NCBI GenBank assembly: GCA_021324155.1
Contig: JAJPJQ010000023.1
Location: forward strand, 62,001-126,000
DNA: 64,000 nt
From: Pseudomonadota bacterium
GTDB taxonomy: Bacteria > Desulfobacterota > Binatia > UBA9968
Direction: 5' to 3'
Shown here: piece by piece, positions 37,732 through 52,499 of the stretch
Numbering within the stretch: position 1 is the stretch's first letter
Layout: the number at the start of each line of letters is the position of its first letter
Notes under the pieces: model-generated
Told to the model about the DNA's origin: nothing
The model's input: the letters and a program-made list of their open reading frames with translations, nothing else
The model's database searches: none
Translations under genes and position numbers: made by a program

Positions 37732-38774
37732 AAAAATGGCTCGCGCCGGCAAGAAGCCGCCGCTTACGGGCGGCACAGCGCCTGGCGCTGAAGGCGGCTT
37801 ACTACAGCGGGGCACTGCATGCGTACCGCGGCGCCCGGCGCGCAAGGATTCACGGGCTCACAGTCCTCATGTATCACAGCATCGGCGGGTCGGACCTCCT
37901 CGGCCCCGGCCTTGCCGTATCGGTGAAAAATTTCGCCGGCCAGCTCGAATATCTTGCGCGCAGCTTCGACATCGTTCCGCTCGACAGCGCGGTCGGGATG
38001 CTGCGCGCGGGCGCGCCGATACCGGACAATACGATCGCGCTGACTTTCGATGACGGCTTCCGCGACAATTACGAGGCCGCTTTTCCGCTGCTCAAGCGGT
38101 ACGGCGCGCCCGCGGCGATGTTCGTCGCGACGCAGCCGCTGACCGACGGCATTTCGCTCTGGCCGTACCGGCTCCGGTTCCTGTTTAAAAAGACGCAAGC
38201 CCGCGAGCTCCGACTGAATTGGCCAAGAACAACGGTCGGCCGGGGGGCGTTCAATCTCGCCAGCGCACGCAAGCGGCGGCGAGCCGTCGACGCGCTCGAG
38301 CCGGCGCTCATCGCCGCGGTGCCGAGCGAGCGCGAGCGCATGCTCGCCGAGATCGCGCGCGGCCTCGGCGTCGACGTAACCAGCGACCCCGCCGACGAGG
38401 CGCCGATATTGACCGCCGAGCAGCTCAAAATATTATCGGCGGGCGACATCGAGATCGGCAGTCACACCGTGACGCACCCGGCGCTGTCGTCGCTTAGCTG
38501 CACGGATGCCGCCGAAGAGCTAACCGCCTCGAAAAAGACGCTCGAAGCGGCGTTGGGCCGGCGCGTCAGATTTCTCGCCTATCCCTTCGGGGCATCGCAG
38601 CATTTCAATGCAGAAGTCGAGGATCTTACGCAGAAAGCGGGATATGAGGCCGCGCTGACGACAGTTCCGGGCGTCAACGGCCGCAGCGCCGATCTCTTCG
38701 CGATCAAGCGCCTCGGCGTGTACGACGATCCGCCGGCAATCTTCGCCTTCAAACTGTCGCGCTGGTTCGCCTGA
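37728..38774 (+). CDS. Polysaccharide deacetylase family protein
   Basis: This 348-residue protein has the NodB-homology motifs: LTFDDGFRDNYEAAFPLL (motif 1 with the metal-binding and base Asp pair) and IEIGSHTVTHPALSSL (motif 2, the H-x-x-x-H zinc pair). A final FLAYPFGASQHF gives motif 3. It has no cleavable signal peptide, so it likely acts on a nascent polysaccharide at the membrane or in the cytoplasm, removing N-acetyl groups. It is translationally coupled to the WecG-type gene. Confidence 0.9.
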   Translation: MKKWLAPARSRRLRAAQRLALKAAYYSGALHAYRGARRARIHGLTVLMYHSIGGSDLLGPGLAVSVKNFAGQLEYLARSFDIVPLDSAVGMLRAGAPIPDNTIALTFDDGFRDNYEAAFPLLKRYGAPAAMFVATQPLTDGISLWPYRLRFLFKKTQARELRLNWPRTTVGRGAFNLASARKRRRAVDALEPALIAAVPSERERMLAEIARGLGVDVTSDPADEAPILTAEQLKILSAGDIEIGSHTVTHPALSSLSCTDAAEELTASKKTLEAALGRRVRFLAYPFGASQHFNAEVEDLTQKAGYEAALTTVPGVNGRSADLFAIKRLGVYDDPPAIFAFKLSRWFA

Positions 38775-38775
38775 G

Positions 38776-39927
38776 ATGCTCGCCCGTCTGCGGATCGGCT
38801 ATTACATAGCGCCTTATTCCGAGGGCGGCATGGCGCGCCACGCGCTCGCGCTAATCGACTACATGCGCGCGCGTCATGAGGTCGTGGTGTTTTGCGATCC
38901 GCGCAGCCAAACCTTTCGCGAAGCGCTCGCCGGTCGGGAAATTGCTCCGCTCAATATCTTAAGCTATCCCGCGAAAGAACGCGGCATCGTGCGCCCCGCG
39001 ATGAACGGTTGGCGGCCTTTCCTCGCCGCGCGATCCGCCATCGGCGCAGAACGCCTGGATATCGTTCATTTTCATGCCGGCAGGCTGGGCGCGGTTTACC
39101 CGGCGATTCTCGCGAGCCGGGCCGCAGGAATTCCGACGCGGCTTCTAACCGTGCACAACGCGCTCGCGGGCCACTCTACGCTGCAGCGTTTTTTCGAGGC
39201 GCGCGCTCTTAGACGGCTCGATCGCATCGTCGCCGTGTGCCGCGAGGTCAAAGACGACCTCGTCGCGAAGAAAAACGTCGCGCCGGAAAAAATTTCCATT
39301 ATCGCCAACGGAGTGGATTCGTCCGAGTTCGACGTTCCCGTCGACACGGCCGCGCTGCGCCACGAGCTCGACGTCGAGGAATCGGCTCAGGTGATCGGCG
39401 CCGTCGGACGCCTCGATGCTGATAAAGGCATCGACCTGCTGATCCGCGCCGCCGCCCGCCTGCGCGCGCGCCGGCCGGCGCTCCGTGTCGTGCTCGTCGG
39501 CTCCGGTCCGCATGAAGGCGCGCTCAAAGAGCTCGCCGAGAGAGAAGGCGTTCGCGACATCGTCCGGTTCGCCGGCTATCGCGCCGACGCGCGGCGGTTG
39601 ATGCACGCGGTCGATATCATCGCATTGCCTTCGCGGCAGGAGGCGCAGCCGTTCACGCTGCTCGAGGCGATGGCGGCGCGAAAGCCGGCGGTCGCCGCCG
39701 CCGTCGGCGGAATTCCCGCAATCATGGTCGACGGCGTGACGGGACTGCTATTTCCATCCGGCGATGTCGAGGCGTTTACGATAGCGGTGGAAAAACTCTT
39801 GGCCGATGCAAACGCCAGGACCGCGATGGGCGACGCCGCGCGCGAGCGCGTGGAGCGCGAATTTTCCCAGACGGCGATGCTCGAAAATACCGAAAAACTT
39901 TACAAAGAGGCGTTGCGTAAAGCGTAG
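38776..39927 (+). CDS. Family 4 glycosyltransferase (copy 2)
   Basis: A 383-residue GT4 retaining transferase closely related to the gene at 30041-31219. Shared stretches are IGYYI/VGYYL at the start, LDIVHFHAGRLG, ISIIANGVDSSEF and the donor site IIALPSRQEAQPFTLLEAMAARKPAV. Start ATG lies two bases after the deacetylase stop. Having closely related transferases at both ends of the locus suggests a duplication whose copies now add different sugars. Confidence 0.9.
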   Translation: MLARLRIGYYIAPYSEGGMARHALALIDYMRARHEVVVFCDPRSQTFREALAGREIAPLNILSYPAKERGIVRPAMNGWRPFLAARSAIGAERLDIVHFHAGRLGAVYPAILASRAAGIPTRLLTVHNALAGHSTLQRFFEARALRRLDRIVAVCREVKDDLVAKKNVAPEKISIIANGVDSSEFDVPVDTAALRHELDVEESAQVIGAVGRLDADKGIDLLIRAAARLRARRPALRVVLVGSGPHEGALKELAEREGVRDIVRFAGYRADARRLMHAVDIIALPSRQEAQPFTLLEAMAARKPAVAAAVGGIPAIMVDGVTGLLFPSGDVEAFTIAVEKLLADANARTAMGDAARERVEREFSQTAMLENTEKLYKEALRKA

Positions 39928-39944
39928 AGCGCGATGCGCGAAAA

Positions 39945-41453
39945 CTATTTTCGGCCGGCGCGCGCTTTGGGCCGATCGGCCGCGGCGGCGTCGGACGATT
40001 TGAAGCCGTAGGCCTCCCATTTATCCAGCACGCGCTTGCGCACGTCTTCCGGCCAGAGATTCTCGAAGCTCGCCTTGATCGGAATCGATTCGGCGGGCCA
40101 GTCCTTGGGCCAGGTGCAGTCGAAAATCACTCCCGCGGCATCGCCGAGCAGACGCTCCTTCGGCGGTAGAAACGGCAGCAGCACGGGAAAGCCGGGAATG
40201 TGATCGACGGGGTGAATGCCGTTTACAGGATGGCATTTGGTCGCGATCGCGTGCAGCACTTCGTCGGTATTCGTCGGATCCACGTCGCTGTCCACCACGA
40301 CGATGTAGTACGTGAACAGCCCGGGCTTCGTTGCCCACACGGCGTGCGCGACACGCCGGGCGAAATTGATAAACGGCACCTCGGTCGAGACGACCGCGAG
40401 GTGGCCGACGGCAAAGGGCGGATAGTAAACGCCCTTCACCGGCAGGCCGAGCCGCTTGAGCTCCGAATAGACTTCGGCGCCTTTGATGAACGCGGTGACG
40501 ATCTGCGACTCGTGGACGGGCATACCCATGTTGGAGAACGTGAGAATCGGATCGTTCCGGTATGTGATCGCGTTGACCTTGAAGATCGGCTTGGGCGAGG
40601 ATTTTCCCGCCTCGTAGCCCATATATTCGCCGAACGGTCCCTCGCTTTTCCGCTCGTGGGGCAGCACCTCGCCTTCGAGGATGATTTCCGCGCCCGCAGG
40701 GACTTCCAAATCCACCGTCTCGCACTTGACGACCTCGATCGGCGCGCCGGCAAGCCCGCCGGCGATATCGACTTCGTTGACGTAGGGCGGAAGCTGCACG
40801 CAGCTCACGATCGGCGCGAGCGGCTGCGCGCCGATGGCGACGGCGGCCGGCATCGGCTTATTCATCGCCTCGTACTTCTGATACATCTGGCCGATGTGCT
40901 GCTGTAGCGGGAAGAGGCAGCCCATCGTGTTGCGATCGTGAATCATCAGGCGGTACATGCCCCAATTGACCCACGAGCTTTCCGGGTCTTTGGTGACAAC
41001 CGTGTGCCAGGTGCCGATGTAGCGCCCGCCGTCGCCGCCGTGGATGAGCGGCGCCGGGAATTTCAGCAGATCGACGTCCATTCCCAATCGAATATTTTCC
41101 TTGCACGGGCCGGTCTTCACCGTCACTGGTTTGATCGGCTTTTCCTTGCGCTCCAGGTAGTAATGCATGATCTCTTGCGGCGCGGTGTCCGGCGCGAGGC
41201 CGAACGCGAGGGCGATGCGCGCGTACAAGGAATGTCCCGGCTGGCGGCTCGGTCCGAGCGAGGCGCCGAGCGCGCGGAACCCTTTGGGATGATCTTTGAC
41301 TTTTTCGAATAGCGCGGCGGGCGCGCCGATGTCGTAGCAATGGCGGATGATCGCGCCCATCTCGAGATTCCAGTCGACCTCTTCGCGGATGCGCTGGAGC
41401 TCGCCGTGGGACTCCAACACGCGGATAAAATCACGCAAATCTTTCAGCGCCAT
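39945..41453 (-). CDS. UbiD-family decarboxylase
   Basis: UbiD enzymes decarboxylate or carboxylate unsaturated and aromatic acids using prenylated FMN. This 502-residue protein (ATG at 41453; a GTG at 41477 is a weaker option) has the family pattern: FRVLESHGELQRI at the N-terminus, WHTVVTKDPESSWVNWGMYRLMIHD, LEGEVLPHERKSEGPFGEYMGY with the catalytic E-x4-GPFGE triad, and STEVPFINFARRVAHAVW. No UbiX prenyltransferase is visible here. It is convergent with the last polysaccharide gene, and function in either ubiquinone synthesis or aromatic catabolism is open. Confidence 0.9.
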   Translation of the reverse strand: MALKDLRDFIRVLESHGELQRIREEVDWNLEMGAIIRHCYDIGAPAALFEKVKDHPKGFRALGASLGPSRQPGHSLYARIALAFGLAPDTAPQEIMHYYLERKEKPIKPVTVKTGPCKENIRLGMDVDLLKFPAPLIHGGDGGRYIGTWHTVVTKDPESSWVNWGMYRLMIHDRNTMGCLFPLQQHIGQMYQKYEAMNKPMPAAVAIGAQPLAPIVSCVQLPPYVNEVDIAGGLAGAPIEVVKCETVDLEVPAGAEIILEGEVLPHERKSEGPFGEYMGYEAGKSSPKPIFKVNAITYRNDPILTFSNMGMPVHESQIVTAFIKGAEVYSELKRLGLPVKGVYYPPFAVGHLAVVSTEVPFINFARRVAHAVWATKPGLFTYYIVVVDSDVDPTNTDEVLHAIATKCHPVNGIHPVDHIPGFPVLLPFLPPKERLLGDAAGVIFDCTWPKDWPAESIPIKASFENLWPEDVRKRVLDKWEAYGFKSSDAAAADRPKARAGRK

Positions 41454-41497
41454 ATCGGAATCTTGTGACAGAAGCACCTCACCTTGTCAACGAAAGG

Positions 41498-41572
41498 CGG
41501 CGATTGGGGATCGGGAATCGAGAATAAGATTGGACTCTTCTTGCAAAATCGTAAATCCTAATCCCCAATTCC
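41498..41572. repeat. ATTGGGG-type palindrome upstream of the bactofilin gene
   Basis: A G-rich arm with GGCGATTGGGGATCGGGA (41498-41515) and a C-rich arm AATCCTAATCCCCAATTCC (41554-41572) share the core ATTGGGGAT and can pair. The same kind of element lies between tolR and tolQ (26614-26696). The gap of 188 bases between ubiD and bactofilin otherwise holds only the bactofilin promoter. Confidence 0.5.
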
Positions 41573-41588
41573 TGTCATTTTTCGGCTC

Positions 41589-41617
41589 TGGACAATTTCC
41601 TCGACCTGGATTATACG
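41589..41617 (+). promoter_or_regulatory. Candidate sigma-70 promoter for the bactofilin gene
   Basis: TGGACA (41589-41594), a 17-base spacer and TATACG (41612-41617). Transcription would begin near 41624, leaving about 18 bases that include a GGGGGG-type ribosome binding site before the ATG at 41642. Confidence 0.5.
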
Positions 41618-41641
41618 GGGCGAAACTCAGGGGGGTGTCTA

Positions 41642-42073
41642 ATGGCGGATAACAGCAGGGCGGCCGGCGCTCGCGCTGCCGATTCGGGCGCGTATCTCGG
41701 CCCGGGCAGCAAGGCCAGCGGCCGTCTCGTTTTCGAAGGGCCGACGACGATCGAGGGGGAGATCGACGGCGAAATTTCCGTGCACGGGAGCCTCACCATC
41801 GGCGAGAGCGCGATCATTAAGGGCAAAGTGAACGCCACCTCCGTCCTCGTCCGCGGCAAGGTGACGGCGGACATTCAGGCCGACAAGAAAATCGACCTGC
41901 AGCCGCCGGCGGTCGTCGTCGGCGACCTGACGACGCAGGCGCTCGTCATCGGCGACGGCGCCCTTCTCGAAGGCCACTGCACGATGCGGAAAGAAAAGGA
42001 AGGCAAAGTCTTGCCGCTGCTGCGCCAGGAAGTCGGCGGGAGAAAAGCCGACGAGCCTGTGCTAGACCAGTAA
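41642..42073 (+). CDS. Bactofilin (polymer-forming cytoskeletal protein)
   Basis: Bactofilins form right-handed beta-helix filaments that shape or organise the cell envelope. The 143-residue protein has the DUF583 beta-helix pattern: YLGPGSKASGRLVFEGPTTIEGEIDGEI, then SLTIGESAIIKGKVNATSVLVRGKVTADIQADKKIDL, with repeated hydrophobic-glycine turns. The last residues are charged and flexible. Its 3' end overlaps the convergent adenine deaminase gene by 12 bases. Confidence 0.9.
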   Translation: MADNSRAAGARAADSGAYLGPGSKASGRLVFEGPTTIEGEIDGEISVHGSLTIGESAIIKGKVNATSVLVRGKVTADIQADKKIDLQPPAVVVGDLTTQALVIGDGALLEGHCTMRKEKEGKVLPLLRQEVGGRKADEPVLDQ

Positions 42074-43825
42074 AGGAACGATCTTCCGCTCTTTCGCGCT
42101 CACCAAACCGCGCGCCGTGATCCGCAGCGCAGGCAAAGTCACGAAAGTGAGAAACGCGAGCGCATAAACCGGCTTCGGGAAAGGCGCGCCGCGCTCGCGC
42201 AGCCGCCGGTGCGCGCGGTCCAGCTTGCGGCCGATCTCGCTCCACGGCTCCAGCGAAAAGATTCCCCCGACGGGAAATTCCATTCGCTCCAAAACATCGC
42301 CACGGTCTACGATCGCAATTCCGCCGCCGGAATCGATCAGCAGGTTGGCGCAGCGCGCCATGTCTTCATCGTCATAACCCGCGACCATCAGCGTATTCTC
42401 GTCTAGGTTGGTCGTCACACCGACAGCGCCCACGCGCGCGCCGAAACCTTTAAGAAAGCCGAGCGCGACGCCGCCTTCCGGTCTATGGCGCTCGAAAACG
42501 GCGATCTTCATGAGGTCTTCCGCGGGATTTGCATGGAGCGCGCCGTTGCGCGCCTCGAATTCGACGACGCGCTCGGCCGTGATCGTCTGGCCGACGAGCT
42601 GCATGACGCGCGCTTTCGCGCGCGCCGTGCCGCACGTGATGCGAAGTGCGTCGGGCTTCATGCCGGACGCGATGTTGAGCGAGTGAAAAGTATCCTCCGG
42701 CCATGCGATCGGCTTTGCGTCGACGAGCGACGCGCCGTTCTTCGCCACGACCTTGCCCTCGATAAGCGTCGCGCGGACGCGCACGCTGCGCAGATCTTCG
42801 AGCAAGGCGAAATCCGCGCGCCGGCCCGGCGCGATGCCGCCGACCTCCTGCTCCAGTCCGGAATACACCGCCGCGTTCAGCGTCGCGGCGCGAATCGCCT
42901 GAACCGGCGGCAGGCCGATCTCGATCGCACGCCGCACGACGAAATCCATATGGCCGTCCGAAAGGACATCGTCCGGGGACATACCGTCGGTGACGAGGAT
43001 GAGGCGCTCGGTGCTGACGCCGCGCGCGACGATCGGTCCGAGGGTCGCTTCGAGATCGCGGCGAAATGAGCCTTCGCGCAGCATCGTCCAGTAGCCGGAG
43101 CGCAGCCGCTGCAGCGCCTCGGCCTCGTTGATCGGCTCGTGGCACGAGGAGACTCCGGCGGCGGCGATCGCCGAGAGCTTGTGGTCGCGCGCGCCGGCGG
43201 TGTGGCCGTGGATGATTTTCCCGCGCTCTCTTGCCATCGCGATGCGCTCGAGCAACTCCTCGTCGCCCTGAAGCAGGCGCAGCCATGAAACGATCTCGCC
43301 CAAGCCGATGACGCGCGGATCGTCGAGCGCTGCCGCGACTTCGGCCTGCGTGAGCGACTTCGTGCTGCAAAGCAGCGGGTCCTGCGGCGCGACCATGGAG
43401 AGCACCGTGTAGACGCGCAGCGGATGCGCCGCGACCTCGTCGAGAAAGAGCTTGACGCCGCGAAAGCCGAAGACCGTCGCCTGCTCGTCGCACGACGCGA
43501 CGAGTCCCGTAGTGCCGTGCGGCAGATACGCCTGGAGATATTCGTACGGCCGGCAGTAATGGCCGATGTGCGTGTGTCCGTCGATGAAGCCGGGCGAAAT
43601 GTAGAGGCCGCTCGCGTCGAAAATTTCGGTGCTGTCGCCGCGCGCATGCGCCGCGCTCGGCCCGACGTGCACGACGCGCCCGTCGAGCACGGCGATCTCC
43701 ATGCCGTCGAGAATCTCGCCGGAATAGACGTTGACGAGCTGGCCGCCGGTCACGATCAGATCGGCCTTGGTCTCGCCCAGCGCGCCGCGCATCAGGCGCC
43801 GGATTTCCGTTGCGGAGAGCGGCAT
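42062..43825 (-). CDS. ade: Adenine deaminase
   Basis: The enzyme converts adenine to hypoxanthine and ammonia in purine salvage. The 587-residue protein has the amidohydrolase metal site PGFIDGHTHIGHY, the family motif KIIHGHTAGARDHKLSAIAAAGVSSCHEPI, and LVTDGMSPDDVLSDGHMD. The C-terminal domain contains AVGVTTNLDENTLMVAGYDDEDM, as in Ade-type enzymes. The metal ligands HxH and the following H are visible. Related proteins act on other purines, so substrate is inferred. Confidence 0.88.
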   Translation of the reverse strand: MPLSATEIRRLMRGALGETKADLIVTGGQLVNVYSGEILDGMEIAVLDGRVVHVGPSAAHARGDSTEIFDASGLYISPGFIDGHTHIGHYCRPYEYLQAYLPHGTTGLVASCDEQATVFGFRGVKLFLDEVAAHPLRVYTVLSMVAPQDPLLCSTKSLTQAEVAAALDDPRVIGLGEIVSWLRLLQGDEELLERIAMARERGKIIHGHTAGARDHKLSAIAAAGVSSCHEPINEAEALQRLRSGYWTMLREGSFRRDLEATLGPIVARGVSTERLILVTDGMSPDDVLSDGHMDFVVRRAIEIGLPPVQAIRAATLNAAVYSGLEQEVGGIAPGRRADFALLEDLRSVRVRATLIEGKVVAKNGASLVDAKPIAWPEDTFHSLNIASGMKPDALRITCGTARAKARVMQLVGQTITAERVVEFEARNGALHANPAEDLMKIAVFERHRPEGGVALGFLKGFGARVGAVGVTTNLDENTLMVAGYDDEDMARCANLLIDSGGGIAIVDRGDVLERMEFPVGGIFSLEPWSEIGRKLDRAHRRLRERGAPFPKPVYALAFLTFVTLPALRITARGLVSAKERKIVPLLV

Positions 43826-43873
43826 GAAGAATTTTTTACCATAGGCGGATCGGCTTTACACGCAGGCAGACAA

Positions 43874-43903
43874 TTGACATTGGTGCGCCCGAGCGCCTAT
43901 TTT
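43874..43903 (+). promoter_or_regulatory. Promoter of the amidohydrolase / nitrile-hydratase-family operon
   Basis: A perfect TTGACA (43874-43879), an 18-base spacer and TATTTT (43898-43903) lie upstream of the amidohydrolase. The start would be near 43911, with the ribosome binding site GGAGAAGGAAG before the ATG at 43925. No other strong promoter precedes the three downstream subunit genes, so they should share this one. Confidence 0.65.
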
Positions 43904-43924
43904 GAGCGGAGAAGGAAGCCGTTT

Positions 43925-44842
43925 ATGATCATCGATTGCCATTCACATCTGGTGCCGCAGAGCTGGCACAATCCGAAGTCGCCGCCGGCGATCTTCGACA
44001 TCCCGCGTCTGCTCAAGGAGCAGGACGAGGCCGGCGTCAATCTCACCGTCTTCGGCAACAACTGGATCCGCACGCCGCAGGGCGCGAACGCGCTCGATGT
44101 CGTCAAGCAGTTCAACGTATTCGCCGCCGAGGCGACAAACAAACATCCCGGCCGGCTGCTCGGCCTCGCCTCTTCGGTCGCGTTCGGCGACGACGGCATA
44201 CTGAAAGAGACCGAGCGCGCCGTGCGCGAGTACGGCCTGAAGGGCATCATGGTAGCTTCGAGCGTCGAGGGCGAATACCTCGATTCGCCGCGCGCGACGC
44301 CGTTCTTCGACCTCGTCACAAAATTGAACGTGCCGCTGTTCGTCCATCCGCCGCGCATCACGATCGGCAACGAAAAAATGGAGATCTTCCGCCTGCCCGA
44401 GTTGCTCGGCCGGCCGTTCGACACCACGCTCTCGCTCACGCGCTTCATCCTGACCGGCGGGCTGGAAAAATTTCCTAATTTGAAGATCGTCGCCGCGCAC
44501 GTGGGCGGCGCGCTGCCGCTGCTGCCGGGTCGCATCGGCATGGGCTACGAGATGCGCAAGGACATGAGCTTCGGGCCGTGGGAATCCGACGTGCTCACCA
44601 AGCACCCGGCCGAATACATCAAGCAGCTCTACATGGACACCGTGAGCCTGCATACGCCGGCGGTGCTCTGCACGGCGCAGACCATCGGCGTCGACCACGT
44701 GGTCTTCGGCAGCGACTATCCGCCCGTGCCGATGCCGCTGAAGCGCTCGGTGAAGGTCGTCCAGGATCTCGAATTGCCGGAGGAAGACAAAAAGAAAATT
44801 CTCGGCGGCAACGCGGCGAAGCTGTTGGGGCTAAGCGGCTAG
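43925..44842 (+). CDS. Amidohydrolase family protein (ACMSD-like, amidohydrolase 2)
   Basis: The protein is 305 residues from the ATG at 43925. It starts MIIDCHSHLVPQSW, the HxH metal-binding pair of amidohydrolase-2 proteins, and has PLFVHPPRI, LKIVAAHVGGALP and VVFGSDYPPVPM further on. The family includes ACMSD-type decarboxylases and hydrolases of organic acids and amides. It is the first gene of the operon with the nitrile-hydratase-family subunits, 13 bases before the next ATG, so it may process the substrate or product of that enzyme. Confidence 0.88.
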   Translation: MIIDCHSHLVPQSWHNPKSPPAIFDIPRLLKEQDEAGVNLTVFGNNWIRTPQGANALDVVKQFNVFAAEATNKHPGRLLGLASSVAFGDDGILKETERAVREYGLKGIMVASSVEGEYLDSPRATPFFDLVTKLNVPLFVHPPRITIGNEKMEIFRLPELLGRPFDTTLSLTRFILTGGLEKFPNLKIVAAHVGGALPLLPGRIGMGYEMRKDMSFGPWESDVLTKHPAEYIKQLYMDTVSLHTPAVLCTAQTIGVDHVVFGSDYPPVPMPLKRSVKVVQDLELPEEDKKKILGGNAAKLLGLSG

Positions 44843-44855
44843 GAAGGATTTAGAA

Positions 44856-45170
44856 ATGGCCAGAGGTCATCACGATATCGGCGGCAGCGAGCGCGATTCC
44901 GGACCGATCGACCGCGCTGAGCACGAGCTCGAAGACTGGGAGATCCTCGCCGACGCCGTCAACCAGGCGCTCGGCGTCGTCGGCGTCAAGCGCACCGACG
45001 AGCTCCGCCGCGCGCGCGAGGAGATGGATTCGGAGCTCTATCGCTCGCTGAAATATTACGAGCGCTGGATCGCCAGCATGGAGACGATTCTGATCGAGAA
45101 AAAGATTCTTACCAAAGAAGAGATCGACCGCAGGATGGCCGCGTTCGACAAAAAATGGGGCGAGCCGTGA
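44856..45170 (+). CDS. Nitrile hydratase beta-chain N-terminal half as a separate subunit (ScnB-like)
   Basis: This 104-residue protein matches the N-terminal part of nitrile hydratase beta chains: HHDIGGSERDSGPIDRAEHELEDWE at the start, and the helix pair LYRSLKYYERWIASMETILIEKKILTKEEI at the end. In ordinary nitrile hydratase this continues into an SH3-like C-terminal half in the same chain; here the chain stops at TGA 45168-45170 and the second half is the next gene. That split is the plan of the beta subunit of thiocyanate hydrolase and of three-subunit nitrile hydratases. Overlap with the next start is GTGA. Confidence 0.85.
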   Translation: MARGHHDIGGSERDSGPIDRAEHELEDWEILADAVNQALGVVGVKRTDELRRAREEMDSELYRSLKYYERWIASMETILIEKKILTKEEIDRRMAAFDKKWGEP

Positions 45171-45448
45171 GCGCAAGATTCAAGCCGGGCGACCGCGTGC
45201 TGGTGAAGATGGAAGACCGCCCCGGCCACATCCGCACGCCATGGTATGTGCGCGGCAAGCGCGGCTGGATCGAGCGCGTCTACGGCGAGTTTCGCAACCC
45301 CGAAACACTCGCATACGGCGGCGACGGCCTGCCGAAGCGCCCGCTCTACCTGGTCGGCTTCGAGCAGTCGCAAGTTTGGAACAAATACGAAGCGGCGAAA
45401 GACAAGCTCTTCATCGATATCTACGAGCATTGGCTCGAGCCCGCGTGA
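45167..45448 (+). CDS. Nitrile hydratase beta-chain C-terminal half as a separate subunit (ScnA-like)
   Basis: The protein is 93 residues from GTG 45167, in a GTGA overlap with the previous stop; an in-frame ATG at 45155 is possible but starts inside the preceding gene. It corresponds to the SH3-like C-terminal domain of nitrile hydratase beta chains: FKPGDRVLVKMEDRPGHIRTPWYVRGKRGWIERVYG, then YLVGFEQSQVW, and the end FIDIYEHWLEPA. It is complete for that domain and so is not a degraded fragment. Confidence 0.85.
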   Translation: MSARFKPGDRVLVKMEDRPGHIRTPWYVRGKRGWIERVYGEFRNPETLAYGGDGLPKRPLYLVGFEQSQVWNKYEAAKDKLFIDIYEHWLEPA

Positions 45449-45460
45449 AAGGAAATCGAC

Positions 45461-46102
45461 ATGAGCGACACGCACGACAAATCCGGGGAGCACGGCCACG
45501 AGCATCCGCGGCACGAGCTCGGCTACTACGCCCGGCGCATCTACGCGATCCGCGATCTGCTGCTGGAGAAAAAGGTGCTCACGCAGGAAGACATTCAGGA
45601 GCAGATCGATTATCAGGAGCAGCGCTCGCCCGCCAATGGCGCGCGCATCGTCGCGCGCGCGTGGGTCGATCCCGACTTCAAGGCGCGGCTTATCAAAGAT
45701 CCTAAAGCCGCGTGCGCCGAACTCGGCATCGACGCGACGAGCCTGAACGAATTCGTCGTGCTGGAGAACACCGACAAAGTCCGCCACATGGTCGTGTGCA
45801 CATTGTGCTCCTGCTATCCCCGGCCGATCCTCGGCCGGCCGCCGGACTGGTACAAGAGCCTCAACTACCGCTCGCGCGCGGTCAGCGACCCGCGCGGCGT
45901 CATGCGCGAATTCGGCCAGAGCGTCGGGCCGGACGTCGAGGTCCGCGTGCACGACAGCACCGCCGACATCCGTTATCTCGTGCTGCCGATACGGCCGTCC
46001 GGCACCGAAGGCCTGAGCGAGAGACAACTCGCGAAGCTCGTCACGCGCGACAGCATGATCGGCGTCGTCGATGCGCTGCCGGCGAGCGCTGCGCGCGCGT
46101 AA
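45461..46102 (+). CDS. Cobalt-type nitrile hydratase / thiocyanate hydrolase catalytic subunit
   Basis: The 213-residue protein carries the metal-binding claw VCTLCSC, with Cys113, Cys116, Ser117 and Cys118; the Thr in CTLC is the mark of the cobalt-type rather than iron-type enzymes. YPRPILGRPPDWYKSLNYRSRAVSDPRGVMREFG follows, the conserved C-terminal part of the fold. The N-terminal helix is long and rich in His (GEHGHEHPRHELG). Nitrile hydratases hydrate nitriles to amides; thiocyanate hydrolase makes carbonyl sulfide and ammonia. The gene order N-beta, C-beta, alpha is that of scnBAC. Which reaction it performs is not decided by the sequence. Confidence 0.88.
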   Translation: MSDTHDKSGEHGHEHPRHELGYYARRIYAIRDLLLEKKVLTQEDIQEQIDYQEQRSPANGARIVARAWVDPDFKARLIKDPKAACAELGIDATSLNEFVVLENTDKVRHMVVCTLCSCYPRPILGRPPDWYKSLNYRSRAVSDPRGVMREFGQSVGPDVEVRVHDSTADIRYLVLPIRPSGTEGLSERQLAKLVTRDSMIGVVDALPASAARA

Positions 46103-46157
46103 AAAGACCCGCTGCGGGTATTTGCTCTGGGCTCCCGCTCCGGGTTAAAATAACCTG
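46103..46157 (+). terminator. Weak hairpin after the nitrile-hydratase-family operon
   Basis: A small ACCC/GGGT stem with a five-base loop (46109-46121) is followed by ATTTGCTCT. A second small stem GGTTA/TAACC (46143-46155) covers the region before the next GTG. Either may separate the operon from the TonB-like gene, but neither is strong. Confidence 0.3.
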
Positions 46158-46988
46158 GTGAGCGCTGCGCGTAATCCGCTCTTTTCGTTCCTTTTAGCCT
46201 CCACCGCACTGCACCTGGCGCTGATGTTCGCGTTGCACGGGCGGTCGCTCAGGCCGCCGGTAATCGAGCAGATTCCGATCGAGATACTCGCGGCGCCGGA
46301 GCCGCCTGCGCCGGCCGTCGAAAAACCCGCGCCGCGACGCAGCCCTCCGCCGCCGCGAGCCAAGGCGCCGCGCGGTGACACGCCCACCCGCGCCGAATTG
46401 CCGCCCGGGCAGCACGCCAAAATCGATCGCTCCGGCGTCGAAGCGCCGCCCAAAAAGATCGCCAAAAAAGAGCCGCCGCCCGTAGAGAAAAACAGCGAGG
46501 AAGAGGAGGAGACGAAAACGCCGCGCGTCGCGACAGCGGACAACGGCCAGGCCGTCATTCAGCAGATGCCCACGTTGAAAGATCTTCTGCCGCCGGGGAT
46601 GAGGATGGCGAATAAAAATGGCGTGGAAGAGCAGGCGCCGATACGTCTGGACAGCCGCGATCCGCGCTATGTGGAATATTTAAGCCGCGTAAGGCAGGCG
46701 CTGAAGCTGGCTTGGGCCGATCCGACGATCGCCAGATCCGCGGTGCGGTCTTACGGCATCGACGGCAGGCTTATCGTCCGGTTTACGCAGACCGACACCG
46801 GCGAGCTCGACGAGCTTTACATCACGCGAACGTCCGGCTACGCCATGCTGGATCAGGAGGCGCTGCGTGTCGTCGCCGCCGCGGCCCCGAATTTCGGCCG
46901 GCCGCCTCGATCGTATGGCAAGCGCACGTTCGAGGTCACATTCATCTACGAGAAAAATACGATCTCTTATACCTTCACGCCGCGGTAA
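46158..46988 (+). CDS. TonB/TolA-type energy transducer, C-terminal TonB domain
   Basis: The 276-residue protein has one N-terminal membrane helix (LFSFLLASTALHLALMFAL), a Pro/Lys-rich periplasmic arm (EPPAPAVEKPAPRRSPPPPRAK and KEPPPVEKN), and a C-terminal TonB-like domain with LSRVRQALKLAW and RLIVRFTQTDTGELDELYITRTSGYAMLDQEALRVVAAAAP. Such proteins carry proton-motive energy to outer-membrane receptors. The start is GTG. No ExbBD or receptor genes adjoin it. The relation to the preceding enzyme genes is unclear. Confidence 0.85.
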   Translation: MSAARNPLFSFLLASTALHLALMFALHGRSLRPPVIEQIPIEILAAPEPPAPAVEKPAPRRSPPPPRAKAPRGDTPTRAELPPGQHAKIDRSGVEAPPKKIAKKEPPPVEKNSEEEEETKTPRVATADNGQAVIQQMPTLKDLLPPGMRMANKNGVEEQAPIRLDSRDPRYVEYLSRVRQALKLAWADPTIARSAVRSYGIDGRLIVRFTQTDTGELDELYITRTSGYAMLDQEALRVVAAAAPNFGRPPRSYGKRTFEVTFIYEKNTISYTFTPR

Positions 46989-47000
46989 TCGGGCGCGCGC

Positions 47001-47909
47001 TCAGTTCGCCGAGTTCTTGCCCTTGTACTTTTTCAACACCCGGATGAACGCCTGAACGAGCGGCGTTTTCTGCCGGCTCTTGTGGACGGCGATGTAGTTG
47101 CTGCGCTTGAGCTTCAAGTCCGGCACTTTGAGAATCTTCAGGTGCCCCGCCTCCACGTCGCTCATGACGTGACACTTCGCGATGAAGCCGATGCCGAGTC
47201 CGCCGGCGACGGCGCTGCGCACCGCGTCGCGCGCGCCGATGCCCAGTTCGAGATGGGGGGTGAACGGAACGCCGAGCTTGGCGAAGCGGTCTTCGATCAT
47301 GTCGCGCACCAGGCTGCCGCCCCTTTCCTCCGTGATGATCGACTCGCGCGCGATGCGCATGAGCGGCACCGAGCTCTTGCTGGCGAGCGGGTGGCGCGGC
47401 GAAGCGATCGCGACGACGTCTTCCTGATGGCACGCCTCGCCCATGATGAGCGGCGACTTCGGCGCGCGCCCGAGGATCGCGACATCGAGCTCGCCGTCGA
47501 GGAGGCTCTTCTCGAGGCTCACGCTCGTGGCGATCCTAAGCGTCATGTCGACCCACGAGAACTCGCGCTTGAACTGCTCGGCGACGAAAGGAAAAAACGA
47601 CGCGGCCGCGACCGCCGAACCGCCGACCGCGAGGCGCCCTTTCTTCAGCCCCTTGAGCTCGTCCATCCGCTCCTTCAGGCCCTCGGCCTTGGCGAGAATG
47701 TCTTCCGCGTCTTGCAGCAACAGCTCACCCGCGGCCGTCAGATTGATTTTGTGCCCGAGCTTTTCGAACAGCCGCACCTCCAGGTCCTGCTCGAGGTCCT
47801 TGATCACGAGCGAGACCGACGGCTGGCGCACGCCGAGCCGCTCGGCGGCCTGGGTGAAGCTTTTGATCTTCGCCACCGTCGTGAAGACTTTAAGTTGATG
47901 AAGAGTCAT
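47001..47909 (-). CDS. LysR-family transcriptional regulator
   Basis: This 302-residue protein has the LysR HTH at its start (MTLHQLKVFTTVAKIKSFTQAAERLGVRQPSVSLVIKDLEQDLEVRLFEK) and the two-lobe effector domain after it. It is on the minus strand just downstream of gcvPB with a 74-base gap that holds its own promoter. Regulated genes could be gcv or the operon on the other side; the sequence does not say. Confidence 0.93.
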   Translation of the reverse strand: MTLHQLKVFTTVAKIKSFTQAAERLGVRQPSVSLVIKDLEQDLEVRLFEKLGHKINLTAAGELLLQDAEDILAKAEGLKERMDELKGLKKGRLAVGGSAVAAASFFPFVAEQFKREFSWVDMTLRIATSVSLEKSLLDGELDVAILGRAPKSPLIMGEACHQEDVVAIASPRHPLASKSSVPLMRIARESIITEERGGSLVRDMIEDRFAKLGVPFTPHLELGIGARDAVRSAVAGGLGIGFIAKCHVMSDVEAGHLKILKVPDLKLKRSNYIAVHKSRQKTPLVQAFIRVLKKYKGKNSAN

Positions 47910-47951
47910 AGGTAAGAGTATCCCCTTTCAATGGCAAATAATTGGATTATG

Positions 47952-47980
47952 GCTATAGCAGGAACTGAAATTGACGTCAA
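47952..47980 (-). promoter_or_regulatory. Promoter of the LysR gene with a palindromic box
   Basis: On the minus strand TTGACG (47975-47980), a 17-base spacer and TATAGC (47952-47957). The -35 lies within the perfect palindrome TTGACGTCAA (47971-47980). A palindrome over the -35 is where an autoregulating LysR protein would bind; that is an inference. Confidence 0.5.
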
Positions 47981-47983
47981 ATA

Positions 47984-49456
47984 TCAATCGCCGCCGCCGG
48001 GCTCCCAGCGGAGGACGGGGCGCCGGGCGGCGCGCGCCTCGTCGAGGCGGCCGACGGGGGTGGTGTGCGGCGCGGATTTGACGACGGCGGGCTCTTCCTT
48101 CGCCTCGCGCGCGATGGCGGTCATCGCGTCGGCGAAGGCGTCGAGCGTTTCGCGCGTCTCGGTCTCCGTGGGCTCGATCATGAGCGCGCCGGAGACGACG
48201 AGCGGAAAATAAATTGTGGGCGGGTGAAAGCCGTAGTCGAGCAGACGCTTGGCGATATCTAGGGTCGTGACGCCATCTTTCTGCTGGTTTCGGTCCGTGA
48301 ACACGCATTCGTGCATCGACGGCTCGGGCGACGGCAGGAAATACGTGTTCTCGAGGCGCTTGCGGACATAATTCGCGTTCAGCACCGCCATCCGGCTCGC
48401 GTCTTCGAGGCCGTCCGAGCCGAGCGAGATCATGTACGTGTAGGCGCGGACGAGAATGCCGAAATTGCCGAAGAACGAGCGCACGCGGCCGACGGACTTT
48501 GGGAAGTCGTCGCGCAGCTCGCAGCGGTCGCCGCTTTTAACGATGCGCGGCACGGGCAGGTAATCCTTGAGGTGCGCCTTTACCCCGACGGGGCCGGCCC
48601 CCGGACCGCCGCCGCCGTGCGGCGTCGAAAAGGTCTTGTGGAGGTTGATATGGAGCACGTCCACGCCCATGTGGCCGGGCTTGGCGATGCCCATGAGCGC
48701 GTTCAAATTCGCGCCGTCGAGATAAACGAGCCCGCCGCGGCGGTGCACCGCGTCGGCGATCGCCTGGATATGGCGCTCGAAGACGCCGAGCGTGTTCGGA
48801 TTGGTGATCATGAGCGCCGCGACATCTTCGGACATCGCGCGCTCGACCGCTTCCGGCTCGATGATGCCCTGCTTGTTCGACGGGATCTGGACGACGTCGT
48901 AGCCGCACAGCGTCGAGCTCGCGGGATTGGTGCCGTGCGCGGTGTCGGGCACGAGGATCTTCTTGCGCGGATTTCCCCGCTCGGCAAGAAACGCGCGGAT
49001 GAGCATGAGGCCGGTGAGCTCGCCCTGCGCGCCGGCCGCGGGCTGCAGCGTGACTGCGTCCATGCCGGCGATCTCGGCCAGCATCGTTTCAAGCTCGGTC
49101 AGGAGCTCGAATGCGCCGGGAATCAATTCCGGCGGAATCAGCGGATGGAGCAGCGCGAAGCACGGCATGCGCGCGGCCACTTCGTTGACTTTGGGATTGT
49201 ATTTCATCGTGCACGAGCCGAGCGGATAGAACTGGCTCTCGATCGAGAAATTGAGGTGCGAGAGCCGCGTGAAGTGGCGCAGCACCTCGAGCTCGCCCAT
49301 CTCGGGAAAGCCCGCGATCTCCTCGCGCGACAGCGCGTCGGGAATCCCGCTCGCGCCTGTCTCCTCGGGCCAGAAAAAAGCGCTTCTGCCGGGCGAGCCG
49401 CTCTCGAAGATCAACGCCTGCGGCCCGCGGCTACCGCGCTGCGAAGGTTCCGACAA
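47984..49456 (-). CDS. gcvPB: Glycine dehydrogenase (decarboxylating) subunit 2
   Basis: The C-terminal half of the P-protein of the glycine cleavage system, encoded apart from its N-terminal half as in many bacteria. The 490-residue protein contains the PLP lysine Lys274 in HINLHKTFSTPHGGGGPG. LGSCTMKYNPK near residue 80 and PDTAHGTNPAS near 170 are family motifs. The start appears to be TTG at 49456 because LIFESGSPGRSAFF near residue 15 is a conserved N-terminal segment and no upstream ATG fits. It overlaps gcvPA by 26 bases. Confidence 0.95.
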   Translation of the reverse strand: MSEPSQRGSRGPQALIFESGSPGRSAFFWPEETGASGIPDALSREEIAGFPEMGELEVLRHFTRLSHLNFSIESQFYPLGSCTMKYNPKVNEVAARMPCFALLHPLIPPELIPGAFELLTELETMLAEIAGMDAVTLQPAAGAQGELTGLMLIRAFLAERGNPRKKILVPDTAHGTNPASSTLCGYDVVQIPSNKQGIIEPEAVERAMSEDVAALMITNPNTLGVFERHIQAIADAVHRRGGLVYLDGANLNALMGIAKPGHMGVDVLHINLHKTFSTPHGGGGPGAGPVGVKAHLKDYLPVPRIVKSGDRCELRDDFPKSVGRVRSFFGNFGILVRAYTYMISLGSDGLEDASRMAVLNANYVRKRLENTYFLPSPEPSMHECVFTDRNQQKDGVTTLDIAKRLLDYGFHPPTIYFPLVVSGALMIEPTETETRETLDAFADAMTAIAREAKEEPAVVKSAPHTTPVGRLDEARAARRPVLRWEPGGGD

Positions 49457-50777
49457 GTTCCTCGATCTCCTGTTCTTCGTTCATTTCCGTCACGCACACG
49501 AGCAACGCATCGCGCATCTCGGGATACCATTTTTCCAGCTCGACGCCGGGCACGATGCGCTTCGCGAAGAAGCGGCTACGGCGCTCGCTTAGACGATCGA
49601 CGTTCACCACGAACTCGTTGAAAAAAGGCCCGCTGAACGCCGGCGCGAGGCCGGCTTCCTCGACGAGACGGTCGCGCACCCGATGCGCGCGGCGCGCGTT
49701 GACCTCCGCGAGACGGCGCATGCCCGACTTGCCGAGCAGCGACATGAAGACCGTCGACGCGAGCGCGCAGAGGCTCTGGCTCGTGCAGATATTGGAGGTC
49801 GCCTTCTCGCGGCGGATGTGCTGCTCGCGCGTGGAGAGCGTGAGCACGAAACCGCGCCGGCCTTCGCCGTCGACTGTTTCGCCGACGAGCCGGCCCGGCA
49901 GGCTGCGCACGAATTTTTTTTGCGACGCGAAAAAACCGTAGCCGGGACCGCCGAGCGACATCGGAACGCCGAGGCTCTGCCCTTCGCCGACGGCGATGTC
50001 GGCGCCCCACGCGCCGGGCGGCTTCAAGAGCGCGAGCGACAGCGGCTCGGTCGTCACAGTCGCGAGCAGCGCGCCGTGGCGGTCGCAGGCGGCGCGCAGC
50101 GGCGCGAGTTCCTCGACCACGCCGAAAAAATTGGGGTAGCCGACGACGACGCACATCGCCCGGTCGTCGAGCGCGCGCGCGAGCGCGTCCGCGTCCGTCG
50201 CACCGTTCGCCGAAAAGGGAATCTCGACCAACTCGACGTCGATGAGATTGCGCAGGAACGTCGCGATCACCTGCCGGTACTGCGGATGCAGGGCGCGCGA
50301 GACGAGCACGCGATGGCGACCGTCTTGTATCCGGCGCGCCATCAGCACCGCCTCCGCCGCGGCGGAGGCGCCGTCGTAGACGCCGGCGTTCGCGACCTCC
50401 ATGCCGGTGAGCTGGCAGACGAGCGTCTGGAACTCGTACATCGCCTGCAGAGTGCCTTGGCTGACCTCGGGCTGATAGGGCGTGTACGACGTGGCGAACT
50501 CGGCGCGCGAGATGATCGCGTCGACCGCGCTCGGGATCGCGTGATGATAGATGCCGCCGCCGAGAAACAAGCTCCAGTCCTGCGCCGAGGCGTTTTTCCC
50601 GGCGAGCGCCGCCATTCGCCGCTTGACGGCGACCTCCGTGAGGCCTTGCGGCAGCGCAATTTGGGCGTTCTGTCTAAGCGCGGCGGGAATATGCCGGATC
50701 AGATCCTCGAAGGCGGAGGCGCCGATAGTGCGGAGCATCCGCTCCTTGTCGGCGGCGGTGTGGGGGGTATAGCGCAT
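49431..50777 (-). CDS. gcvPA: Glycine dehydrogenase (decarboxylating) subunit 1
   Basis: The N-terminal half of the P-protein, 448 residues. Typical segments are YTPHTAADKERMLRTIG at the start, FLGGGIYHHAIPSAVDAIISRAEF, TSYTPYQPEVSQGTLQAMYEFQTLVCQLTGMEVANAGVYDGASAAAEAVLMA, and GPGYGFFASQKKFVRSLPGRLVGET. With gcvPB it decarboxylates glycine and passes the methylamine to the lipoyl group of GcvH. Confidence 0.97.
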   Translation of the reverse strand: MRYTPHTAADKERMLRTIGASAFEDLIRHIPAALRQNAQIALPQGLTEVAVKRRMAALAGKNASAQDWSLFLGGGIYHHAIPSAVDAIISRAEFATSYTPYQPEVSQGTLQAMYEFQTLVCQLTGMEVANAGVYDGASAAAEAVLMARRIQDGRHRVLVSRALHPQYRQVIATFLRNLIDVELVEIPFSANGATDADALARALDDRAMCVVVGYPNFFGVVEELAPLRAACDRHGALLATVTTEPLSLALLKPPGAWGADIAVGEGQSLGVPMSLGGPGYGFFASQKKFVRSLPGRLVGETVDGEGRRGFVLTLSTREQHIRREKATSNICTSQSLCALASTVFMSLLGKSGMRRLAEVNARRAHRVRDRLVEEAGLAPAFSGPFFNEFVVNVDRLSERRSRFFAKRIVPGVELEKWYPEMRDALLVCVTEMNEEQEIEELVGTFAAR

Positions 50778-50786
50778 GCAGAGGAC

Positions 50787-51248
50787 CTATTTCTCGTCCT
50801 CGTCGTCGTCATCGTCGTCCTCTTCTTCGTTGTCGTCGTCGTCGTCGTCGTCTTCGTCTTCCTCTTTCTGCTGCTCGATGTATTCGGCGTACTCCTCGGC
50901 GTTCATGAGATCCTTGAGATCGTCCATATCGGTCATCTCGACCTTGATCATCCAGCCGTCGCCGTAGGGATCGTCGTTGATCGTCTCCGGATTCTCCGGC
51001 AGCACGTCGTTCACTTCGACGACCGCGCCGGACACGGGCGCAAAGACGTCGGACACGGCTTTCACGGACTCCACCGCGCCGAACGGGTCGTCTTTAACGA
51101 CCTTTTCGCCGACTTCCGGCAATTCGACGTATACGACATCTCCGAGCTCGTGCTGCGCGAACTCGGTGATGCCGATGATGGCGATCTTGTCCTCGACCAG
51201 CACCCATTCGTGCTCTTTGGAATACTTCAGTCCGTCGGGGAACTCCAT
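50787..51248 (-). CDS. gcvH: Glycine cleavage system H protein with a long acidic tail
   Basis: GcvH carries the lipoyl arm that shuttles the aminomethyl group between P and T proteins. The lipoylated lysine is Lys63 in GAVESVKAVSDV. The core of about 128 residues has the normal H-protein length and ends near AEYIEQQKEE. A tail of about 25 Asp and Glu residues then follows, ending EDEK. The tail is coded by a near-perfect GAC/GAT/GAA trinucleotide tract at 50790-50864. A GGAGGG ribosome binding site precedes the ATG. Confidence 0.95.
   Translation of the reverse strand: MEFPDGLKYSKEHEWVLVEDKIAIIGITEFAQHELGDVVYVELPEVGEKVVKDDPFGAVESVKAVSDVFAPVSGAVVEVNDVLPENPETINDDPYGDGWMIKVEMTDMDDLKDLMNAEEYAEYIEQQKEEDEDDDDDDDNEEEDDDDDDEDEK
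50790..50864 (-). repeat. Trinucleotide tract coding for the acidic GcvH tail
   Basis: Read on the plus strand this is mostly GTC and TTC/CTC triplets, so on the coding strand mostly GAC, GAT, GAA and GAG codons. Such tracts slip easily in replication, so tail length may vary between strains. Confidence 0.8.
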
Positions 51249-51292
51249 CGTGACCCTCCTGAGATCGATTTAGTACGGCTTTTCACTCGCGA

Positions 51293-51332
51293 GTTTCTGG
51301 TTTCAAGTATGATTCAGATAAAAATAAGTCAA
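51293..51332 (-). promoter_or_regulatory. Candidate promoter of gcvH, overlapping repeat copy B
   Basis: The 132-base gap between gcvT and gcvH has TTGACT (51327-51332) and, after 17 bases, TACTTG (51304-51309) on the minus strand. The -10 is poor and lies in the GTTTC-type repeat copy B (51293-51308), which matches 9198-9213 at 15 of 16 bases. A separate promoter would let gcvH-gcvPA-gcvPB be expressed apart from folD-gcvT. Confidence 0.35.
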
Positions 51333-51380
51333 GCCCTTTTCGGCTTTTCTTGAGCGGAAAATTTTAACCTCAAAATATGG

Positions 51381-52499
51381 TTATTGCGGCCGGCGGTAAA
51401 ACGGCAGCGGCACGACGCGCGCGCGGGCGCGGCGCTCGCGGATCTCGACCTCGACTTCCGTCCCCGGGGCGGCGTGCTCGCTTCCGACGTAGGACATCGC
51501 GATCGCCTTGCCGAGGGTCGGCGACTTGGTCCCGCTCGTCACCTCGCCCGTGCGCTTGCCGCCGGCGAAGACCGAATAGTGCGCGCGGGCGATGCCGGGA
51601 TCGATCAGCTCCAGACCGACAAGCTTTCGCTGGACGCCGTTTTCCTTCTGCCGCACCAGAGCGTCGCGACCCAGGAATTCCGCCTTGGAAAATTTCACGA
51701 CCCAATCGAGCCCCGCCTCGAGCGGCGTGGTCGTGTCGTCGAGCTCGTGGCCGTAGAGCGCCAGCGCGCGCTCGAGTCTCAGCGTATCGCGGGCGCCGAG
51801 GCCTGCCGGTTTGAGGCCGTCGCTCTCGCCCGCGTCGAGCAGCGCATTCCACAGCTTTTCCGCATCTTCGGCTTCGCAAAAAAGCTCGAAGCCGTCTTCG
51901 CCGGTGTAGCCGGTGCGCGCGACGAGCGAGCGGATGCCCCCGACGTCGCCGAAAAAAAAGTAGAACGACTTGACGTCCTTCAGCGGCGTCGGCGTCAGCG
52001 GCTGAAGAATTTTTTCAGCCGCCGGGCCCTGAAGCGCGAGCTGCGCATAGCGCGCGCTCGTATTCTCGACCGGAACATCGGACGGAGCATGGCCGCGAAT
52101 CCAATCGAAATCTTTATCGGTGTTCGACGCGTTGACGCAGATGAAGATAGCGCCCGGCTTGAGCGGATAGACGACGATGTCGTCGACCGCGCCGCCCCGC
52201 TCGTTCAGCAATAAATTATATTGCGCCTGGCCGGGCTTCGCGCGCGCGAGGTCATTCGGCGTCAGCTTCTGGCAGAAATCGAAAGCGCCTTCGCCGAGGA
52301 CTTCGACCTCGCCCATGTGGCTCACGTCGAAAAGGCCGGCGCGCGACCGCACCGCCAAGTGCTCGTCGATGACGCCGCTGTATTGCACGGGCATCTCCCA
52401 GCCGGCGAACTCGACCATCTTCGCCCCCAGGCGTCGATGGACGTGATAGAGCGGGGTTCTTTTCAGTTTCGGAGCCTGGGCTGCGGCTGGCGCGCTCAC
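51381..52499 (-). CDS. gcvT: Aminomethyltransferase (glycine cleavage T protein)
   Basis: GcvT moves the methylene group from lipoyl-GcvH to tetrahydrofolate. The 372-residue protein has LKRTPLYHVHRRLGAKMVEFAGWEMPVQYSG and HEDLAVRSRAGLFDVSHMGEV-type segments near the N-terminus (HLAVRSRAGLFDVSHMGEV here) and the C-terminal KRTGEVTSGTKSPTLGKAIAMSYV. The start is GTG. It follows folD by nine bases. Confidence 0.95.
   Translation of the reverse strand: MSAPAAAQAPKLKRTPLYHVHRRLGAKMVEFAGWEMPVQYSGVIDEHLAVRSRAGLFDVSHMGEVEVLGEGAFDFCQKLTPNDLARAKPGQAQYNLLLNERGGAVDDIVVYPLKPGAIFICVNASNTDKDFDWIRGHAPSDVPVENTSARYAQLALQGPAAEKILQPLTPTPLKDVKSFYFFFGDVGGIRSLVARTGYTGEDGFELFCEAEDAEKLWNALLDAGESDGLKPAGLGARDTLRLERALALYGHELDDTTTPLEAGLDWVVKFSKAEFLGRDALVRQKENGVQRKLVGLELIDPGIARAHYSVFAGGKRTGEVTSGTKSPTLGKAIAMSYVGSEHAAPGTEVEVEIRERRARARVVPLPFYRRPQ

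Follow-up and report, generated by a model that had tools for sequence, protein, structure and literature searches.

The analysed window, a 64,000-nucleotide stretch of contig JAJPJQ010000023.1 from a Pseudomonadota bacterium (GTDB lineage Bacteria; Desulfobacterota; Binatia; UBA9968), contains four tightly packed genes on the plus strand, which encode an amidohydrolase, the N-terminal and C-terminal halves of a nitrile hydratase (NHase) beta chain as free proteins (referred to as the N-half and C-half) and an NHase alpha chain (Table 1). The initial annotation had described the beta chain as two small complete genes, with an alpha chain carrying CTLCSC behind them and an amidohydrolase in the lead, and this is borne out by the profile matches, each half having its own start, stop and Pfam family. 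A GTG start at 45167 gives the C-half a 4-base overlap with the N-half, and the two frames overlap by 4 bases in the relatives L052, L063, L067 and L074 as well. The N-half retains the DExRR and YYERW motifs, the C-half retains H-x-R-x-P-x-Y-x-R-G, and the metal motif C-T/S-L-C-S-C is present in the alpha chain as VCTLCSC, which by the motif rule we take to be of the cobalt type. Elsewhere in the window, a glycine cleavage H-protein of 153 aa (PF01597; 50787-51248, minus strand) ends in a long Asp/Glu run.

Table 1. Features at the NHase locus, in window coordinates.
Feature	Position	Strand	Evidence
Adenine-deaminase-like gene, divergent; context, outside the enzyme	42062..43825	-	PF13382, 151.5 bits
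Promoter-like site TTGACA-18-TATTTT (weak assignment)	43874..43903	+	10/12 consensus matches
Amidohydro_2 gene (ACMSD-like metal hydrolase or decarboxylase)	43925..44842	+	PF04909, 122.8 bits
Free beta N-half of NHase (AnhD-type), P0001, 104 aa	44856..45170	+	PF21006 NHase_beta_N, 71.4 bits
Free beta C-half of NHase (AnhE-type, SH3-like), P0002	45155/45167..45448	+	PF02211 NHase_beta_C, 78.1 bits
NHase alpha, P0003, 213 aa, VCTLCSC, His-rich N-terminus	45461..46102	+	PF02979 NHase_alpha, 270 bits
Gene with TonB C-terminal domain, 3' of the set	46158-46988		

The genome of the window (4.8 Mb in 53 contigs, 98% complete) holds two alpha chains, two beta C-halves and one beta N-half according to profile searches. 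A separate intact beta gene elsewhere in this genome, which the initial annotation had named as evidence against its reading, was looked for with PF21006 and PF02211 and not found; the single PF21006 match over the cut-off is separated by frame or contig from both PF02211 matches. No activator was recognisable in the same genome with PF21006 and TIGR03889, each at E<=1. The activator-family search matched the N-half alone, below its cut-off, and the only other distant match outside the locus reached 12.4 bits over 30 positions of a 345-aa frame. PF21006 gives an activator of the thiocyanate hydrolase type 18.4 bits, a score which is below the cut-off but which the E<=1 threshold used for the own genome would still have admitted. 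Absence of an activator refers here to the PF21006 and TIGR03889 families, unrelated metallochaperones lying outside these searches. The genome gives four matches to amidase families, of a kind also present in 12 of 14 control genomes, and the enzymes concerned could process an amide product further.

The distribution of the gene set was followed through 58 genomes (the window's own included), 40 of which have a PF02979 match. There were 69 alpha matches above 150 bits, and the regions around 60 of them were read in addition to the window; the eight others belong to G050 (three), G027 (two), G034 (two) and G029 (one). One locus, L040 of genome G007, runs into a contig end and was left untyped. 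The loci were sorted by gene order. Group I, to which the window belongs, has the order N-half, C-half, alpha and comprises 22 loci of the order of the host, window included. In group II (14 loci) the alpha chain follows a domain of about 145 residues and the C-half comes next. In group III (five loci, one family) the C-half precedes an alpha chain that has a His-rich linker and in which the N-terminal hairpin is duplicated, and a separate beta N-half was not seen at these loci. Group III consists of L070, L072, L073, L091 and L092, and the sequence HGHDHSHDD is found in three of the five.

In 24 genomes of the order that carry a full-length alpha chain and lack a classical operon, a second, activator-like PF21006 match is absent at E<=1e-3, a threshold at which a divergent activator could be missed, with the exception of G006, which has one extra N-half-like frame. 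These genomes were typed from a whole-read locus in 21 cases and by coordinates only for G027 and G034, and the alpha chain of G007 is cut. A classical operon is also present in G004, G016, G017 and G020, and in all four an activator-like PF21006 match adjoins it. At one classical locus, L084, an activator was not seen in the stretch read. As a separate observation, a 13-kb stretch of G033 (G033:C1:2510638-2523649) holds 18 short, low-scoring PF02979 matches, which probably represent NHLP-type leader peptides from a cluster for a peptide natural product.

These loci were placed relative to NHases of other organisms in a maximum-likelihood tree built from 69 alpha domains. It includes all 16 plasmid loci chosen for variety out of 179 plasmid records in which an alpha chain was matched, and L104 alone of the group II loci from the named-genome scan described below; of the loci that were read, L061 and L062 (group I), L049, L050 and L064 (group II), L092 (group III), L011 and L058 (classical) and L040 were omitted. 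The 23 rows on the classical side of the tree (support 100/100) comprise the classical systems, two fusions of alpha and activator, and those split systems that have an activator. On the non-classical side are group I, whose 20 rows, sorted by gene order beforehand, form a clade (100/99) free of other architectures, group II (12 rows, 100/100), group III (4 rows, 100/100), nine further split systems whose locus shows no activator, and a thiocyanate hydrolase. The tree also bears on a refuting outcome named in the initial annotation, an alpha chain firmly inside the ordinary two-subunit NHases, which did not occur.

Among the rows without an activator at the locus, 45 of 46 lie outside the activator-bearing clade, the activator having been judged at the locus, not genome-wide, for plasmids and for group II loci of other phyla. 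The rule has two exceptions: the thiocyanate hydrolase lies outside in spite of its activator, and L084 lies inside although none was seen there. Of the nine split systems lacking an activator at the locus, three share their genome with classical operons that have activators (G037, G044 and G057). Two free beta halves, as in the window, are also found in Aminobacter sp. MSH1 (L117) and Gloeocapsopsis dulcis (L116), but there the order is alpha, N-half, C-half, activator, and the alpha chains lie inside the classical clade, so that their beta split is probably separate in origin. Judged from sequence relationships, splitting of the beta chain probably happened more than once, and the absence of an activator appears to track the alpha lineage and not the beta split.

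Several other readings of the locus can be weighed against this evidence. A frameshifted or decayed beta gene, and with it an inactive NHase, would likewise leave two short, adjacent halves. However, each half here has a start and a stop, the 4-base overlap recurs in four relatives and the conserved motifs are intact. Separate N-half, C-half and alpha genes are found at 21 further loci of the order, which argues against a sequencing error as well, and decay of the beta gene is so improbable as to be practically negligible. At one of the related loci, L065, the N-half is itself split over two frames. The initial annotation had classed the set as NHase or thiocyanate hydrolase and compared it with ScnB-ScnA-ScnC of Thiobacillus. 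Its three-subunit, NHase-family part with a split beta chain stands, whereas the thiocyanate hydrolase part does not. The beta split in the order given there for thiocyanate hydrolase speaks for that enzyme, as do the resemblance of the DExRR stretch of the N-half to EERRR of the thiocyanate hydrolase beta chain and the position of the window alpha on the non-classical side together with L080, a thiocyanate hydrolase locus of the same class (G042). The rows of L080, Streptomyces and Rhizobium, however, are grouped with a support of 84/57 only. The window alpha scores 211.2 on the model for the thiocyanate hydrolase gamma chain (TIGR03887), against a curated cut-off of 291.45, and 260.9 on that for the NHase alpha chain (TIGR01323), where the cut-off is 249.85. 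L080, the positive control, gives the reverse (392.2 on TIGR03887 and 217.6 on TIGR01323), and its alpha-family chain matches PDB 2dd4_C with 348 bits. An activator after the alpha chain, a trait of thiocyanate hydrolase, is absent from window positions 38000-52000 and from the own genome, whereas an activator-like gene adjoins the alpha-family chain of L080. On the curated cut-offs and the positive control, identity as a thiocyanate hydrolase was rejected, and this reading is considered very unlikely. Split beta halves and the CTLCSC motif are common to the window set and the enzyme of Thiobacillus thioparus (PDB 2dd4), and a genuine relative of the latter does occur in the class, as L080 has the full set of N-half, C-half, gamma chain and activator-like gene.

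The amidohydrolase raises a different alternative, in which the three-subunit NHase and the upstream enzyme act in one pathway, on the same substrate or product, as had been proposed from the gene order. The gene lies 13 bases from the N-half on the same strand, and the same four-gene order with a gap of 17 bases is found in G002. Yet 26 of 33 other genomes have an ortholog (69-80% identity), which was seen beside an NHase in G002 alone; orthologs also occur in G001, G003, G013 and G015, which lack any alpha match. No NHase part was found at the 20 loci fetched from the 25 other amidohydrolase loci; at three of them (L128, L135 and L143) the contig stops between 14 and 216 bases downstream (at 14, 111 and 216), making adjacency incompletely visible there, and G001, the host of one of these three, has no alpha chain. 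The commonest neighbour found is a homolog of the adenine-deaminase-like gene, on the opposite strand at 13 of the 20 loci. The gene 5' of the N-half in eight other group I loci belongs to a single family, whose member in L046 was read as PEP carboxykinase. The distribution of orthologs and their neighbours led us to reject the amidohydrolase as a working partner, within the contig-end limits at three loci, and a shared pathway is improbable. The nearest solved chains by sequence are ACMSD decarboxylases (E 5e-35). A bactofilin gene (41642-42073, plus strand) lies near the adenine-deaminase-like gene in the window, and homologs of both are found near the amidohydrolase in many relatives.

The amidohydrolase is likely the first gene of the transcript that includes the NHase set, and it is probably co-transcribed with these genes while not being their functional partner; most likely, the NHase set arrived behind a pre-existing pair of amidohydrolase and adenine-deaminase-like genes. 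The perfect TTGACA promoter of the initial annotation holds for one hexamer: the TTGACA at 43874 has no mismatch, but the −10 hexamer paired with it, TATTTT, agrees at only 4/6 positions, and TTGACA is absent from the 115 bases 5' of the orthologous gene in G002. A scan of 43600-46400 gave three promoter-like sites, compared with a mean of 0.4 after shuffling.

An NHase with this arrangement has been studied in Streptomyces canus, where the genes anhD, anhE and anhA encode a three-subunit enzyme whose D and E subunits correspond by homology to the N-terminal and C-terminal portions of the beta chain; as far as the consulted text of that report goes, no activator was recognised in the genome, and AnhD is reported to act as a metal and self-subunit-swapping chaperone in the absence of an activator (PMC7329996). 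The initial annotation mentioned neither the missing activator nor this precedent. Going by the published description of strain CGMCC 13662, AnhD-AnhE-AnhA shares with the window set the gene order, the three subunits and the lack of an activator gene. The host of the window is a distant organism, and the group I alpha chains form a clade of their own, apart from the alpha chain of a Streptomyces plasmid; the two are not sisters, and the non-classical side is all they have in common in the tree. The leading amidohydrolase is a further difference, being seen only in the window and G002. The same gene order with no adjoining activator is found on plasmids of Streptomyces sp. NBC_01176 and Planktothrix agardhii, while loci of Rhizobium, Microvirga and Polymorphobacter have the order C-half, alpha, N-half. 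The alpha chains on the Streptomyces, Planktothrix and Microvirga plasmids score over the NHase cut-off and under that for thiocyanate hydrolase. With the activator-free kind already described in S. canus and the same order present on plasmids, the operon of the window represents a known arrangement.

Classical cobalt-type NHases (beta, alpha and activator, as in Pseudonocardia thermophila and Rhodococcus) share the alpha family, the metal motif and both beta domains with the window set. They differ in having a single two-domain beta gene, the trait of the classical two-subunit enzymes, which the window set does not have; its beta chain is split, it has no activator and its alpha chain lies outside the classical clade. 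Among the arrangements listed in a review, as far as its consulted part shows, are thiocyanate hydrolase, ANHase and eukaryotic fusions (PMC7193024). Among the papers searched, no published link between nitrile hydratase and Binatota was found, and the word count listed for the Binatota genome paper gives 0 occurrences of "nitrile" (PMC8262859).

Gene structure, family membership, the absence of a recognisable activator, conservation and the position of the alpha chain in the tree identify the window set with good confidence as a three-subunit cobalt NHase of the activator-free kind, like AnhD-AnhE-AnhA. From these features we infer its NHase activity and substrate, its use of cobalt and a chaperone role for the N-half. 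Nitrile hydratases convert nitriles into amides by means of Co(III) and oxidised cysteines. In the proposed mechanism, the alpha chain would hold Co(III) in the VCTLCSC claw, and the two free beta halves would assemble around it and supply conserved arginines, giving a three-subunit enzyme that would hydrate a nitrile to the amide. The N-half is proposed as the chaperone because no activator is recognisable in the genome and because it is homologous to activators; it probably holds the alpha chain during cobalt insertion and would then transfer it via subunit swapping.

The second alpha chain of the genome belongs to group II (L034:5600-7378, on G000:C30), where a 351-residue alpha fusion, a GNAT acetyltransferase and an 88-residue beta C-half are encoded; the acetyltransferase is found at no other such locus examined. 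The fused domain of group II is about 145 residues long, conserved and mostly helical, with the pattern HMHD...AVEEDLEYY...EDNRKERGDYDDFF. A beta N-half was not recognisable at this locus or at the 13 others read, nor at E<=1e-3 in the genome of G014, which is 90% complete and in which group II alone was found. When two short peptide patterns were run against named genomes, 14 group II loci came up in metagenome-assembled genomes (MAGs) titled Deltaproteobacteria, Candidatus Binatia, Syntrophobacter, Chloroflexi, Verrucomicrobia and Rokubacteria, some of which are relatives already counted above. Among the 14, L109 is cut by a contig end, and L110, in a Rokubacteria MAG, consists of a 58-residue frame (L110:3444-3620) that joins the start of the domain to the end of a C-half and looks like what a deletion left of the whole locus.

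The group II domain was also considered as a divergent beta N-half, which was rejected since profile comparison with the N-half was negative (hhalign probability 2.7 and 4.5); TEDNRKER of group II resembles TDELRRAR of the N-half by eye, without statistical support. The domain gave nothing over the cut-off in Pfam and a best E of 0.075 in a profile search of PDB sequences. AlphaFold modelled the domain alone with a mean pLDDT of 46.7 and the full chain with a mean pLDDT of 74.4 and pTM of 0.65; the full-chain model has three N-terminal helices, but its residues 103-128, which include the EDNRKERG motif, are below a pLDDT of 50. In a fold comparison of the model the alpha part was matched, and among the matches listed those that mainly cover the N-domain had Z <=3.8, which is weak for helical bundles. 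A tentative proposal, somewhat less probable than even, is that group II is a new architecture in which the fused domain replaces the N-half and its arginine, and perhaps the activator, to give a self-contained enzyme of two polypeptides. The reaction may differ too, since the own-genome group II alpha scores 210.1 on the NHase model TIGR01323 and 151.8 on the thiocyanate hydrolase model TIGR03887, in each case under the cut-off.

If true, the group II fusion would be a third way to build an enzyme of the NHase family. For group I, the results suggest that an entire bacterial order, whose named relatives here are MAGs without exception, shares as a conserved enzyme the activator-free three-subunit NHase known from work on one Streptomyces. 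The order of events in the evolution of the family thereby becomes testable, namely whether a free N-half doubling as a chaperone or a dedicated activator came first, and activator-free NHases might be simpler catalysts to express.
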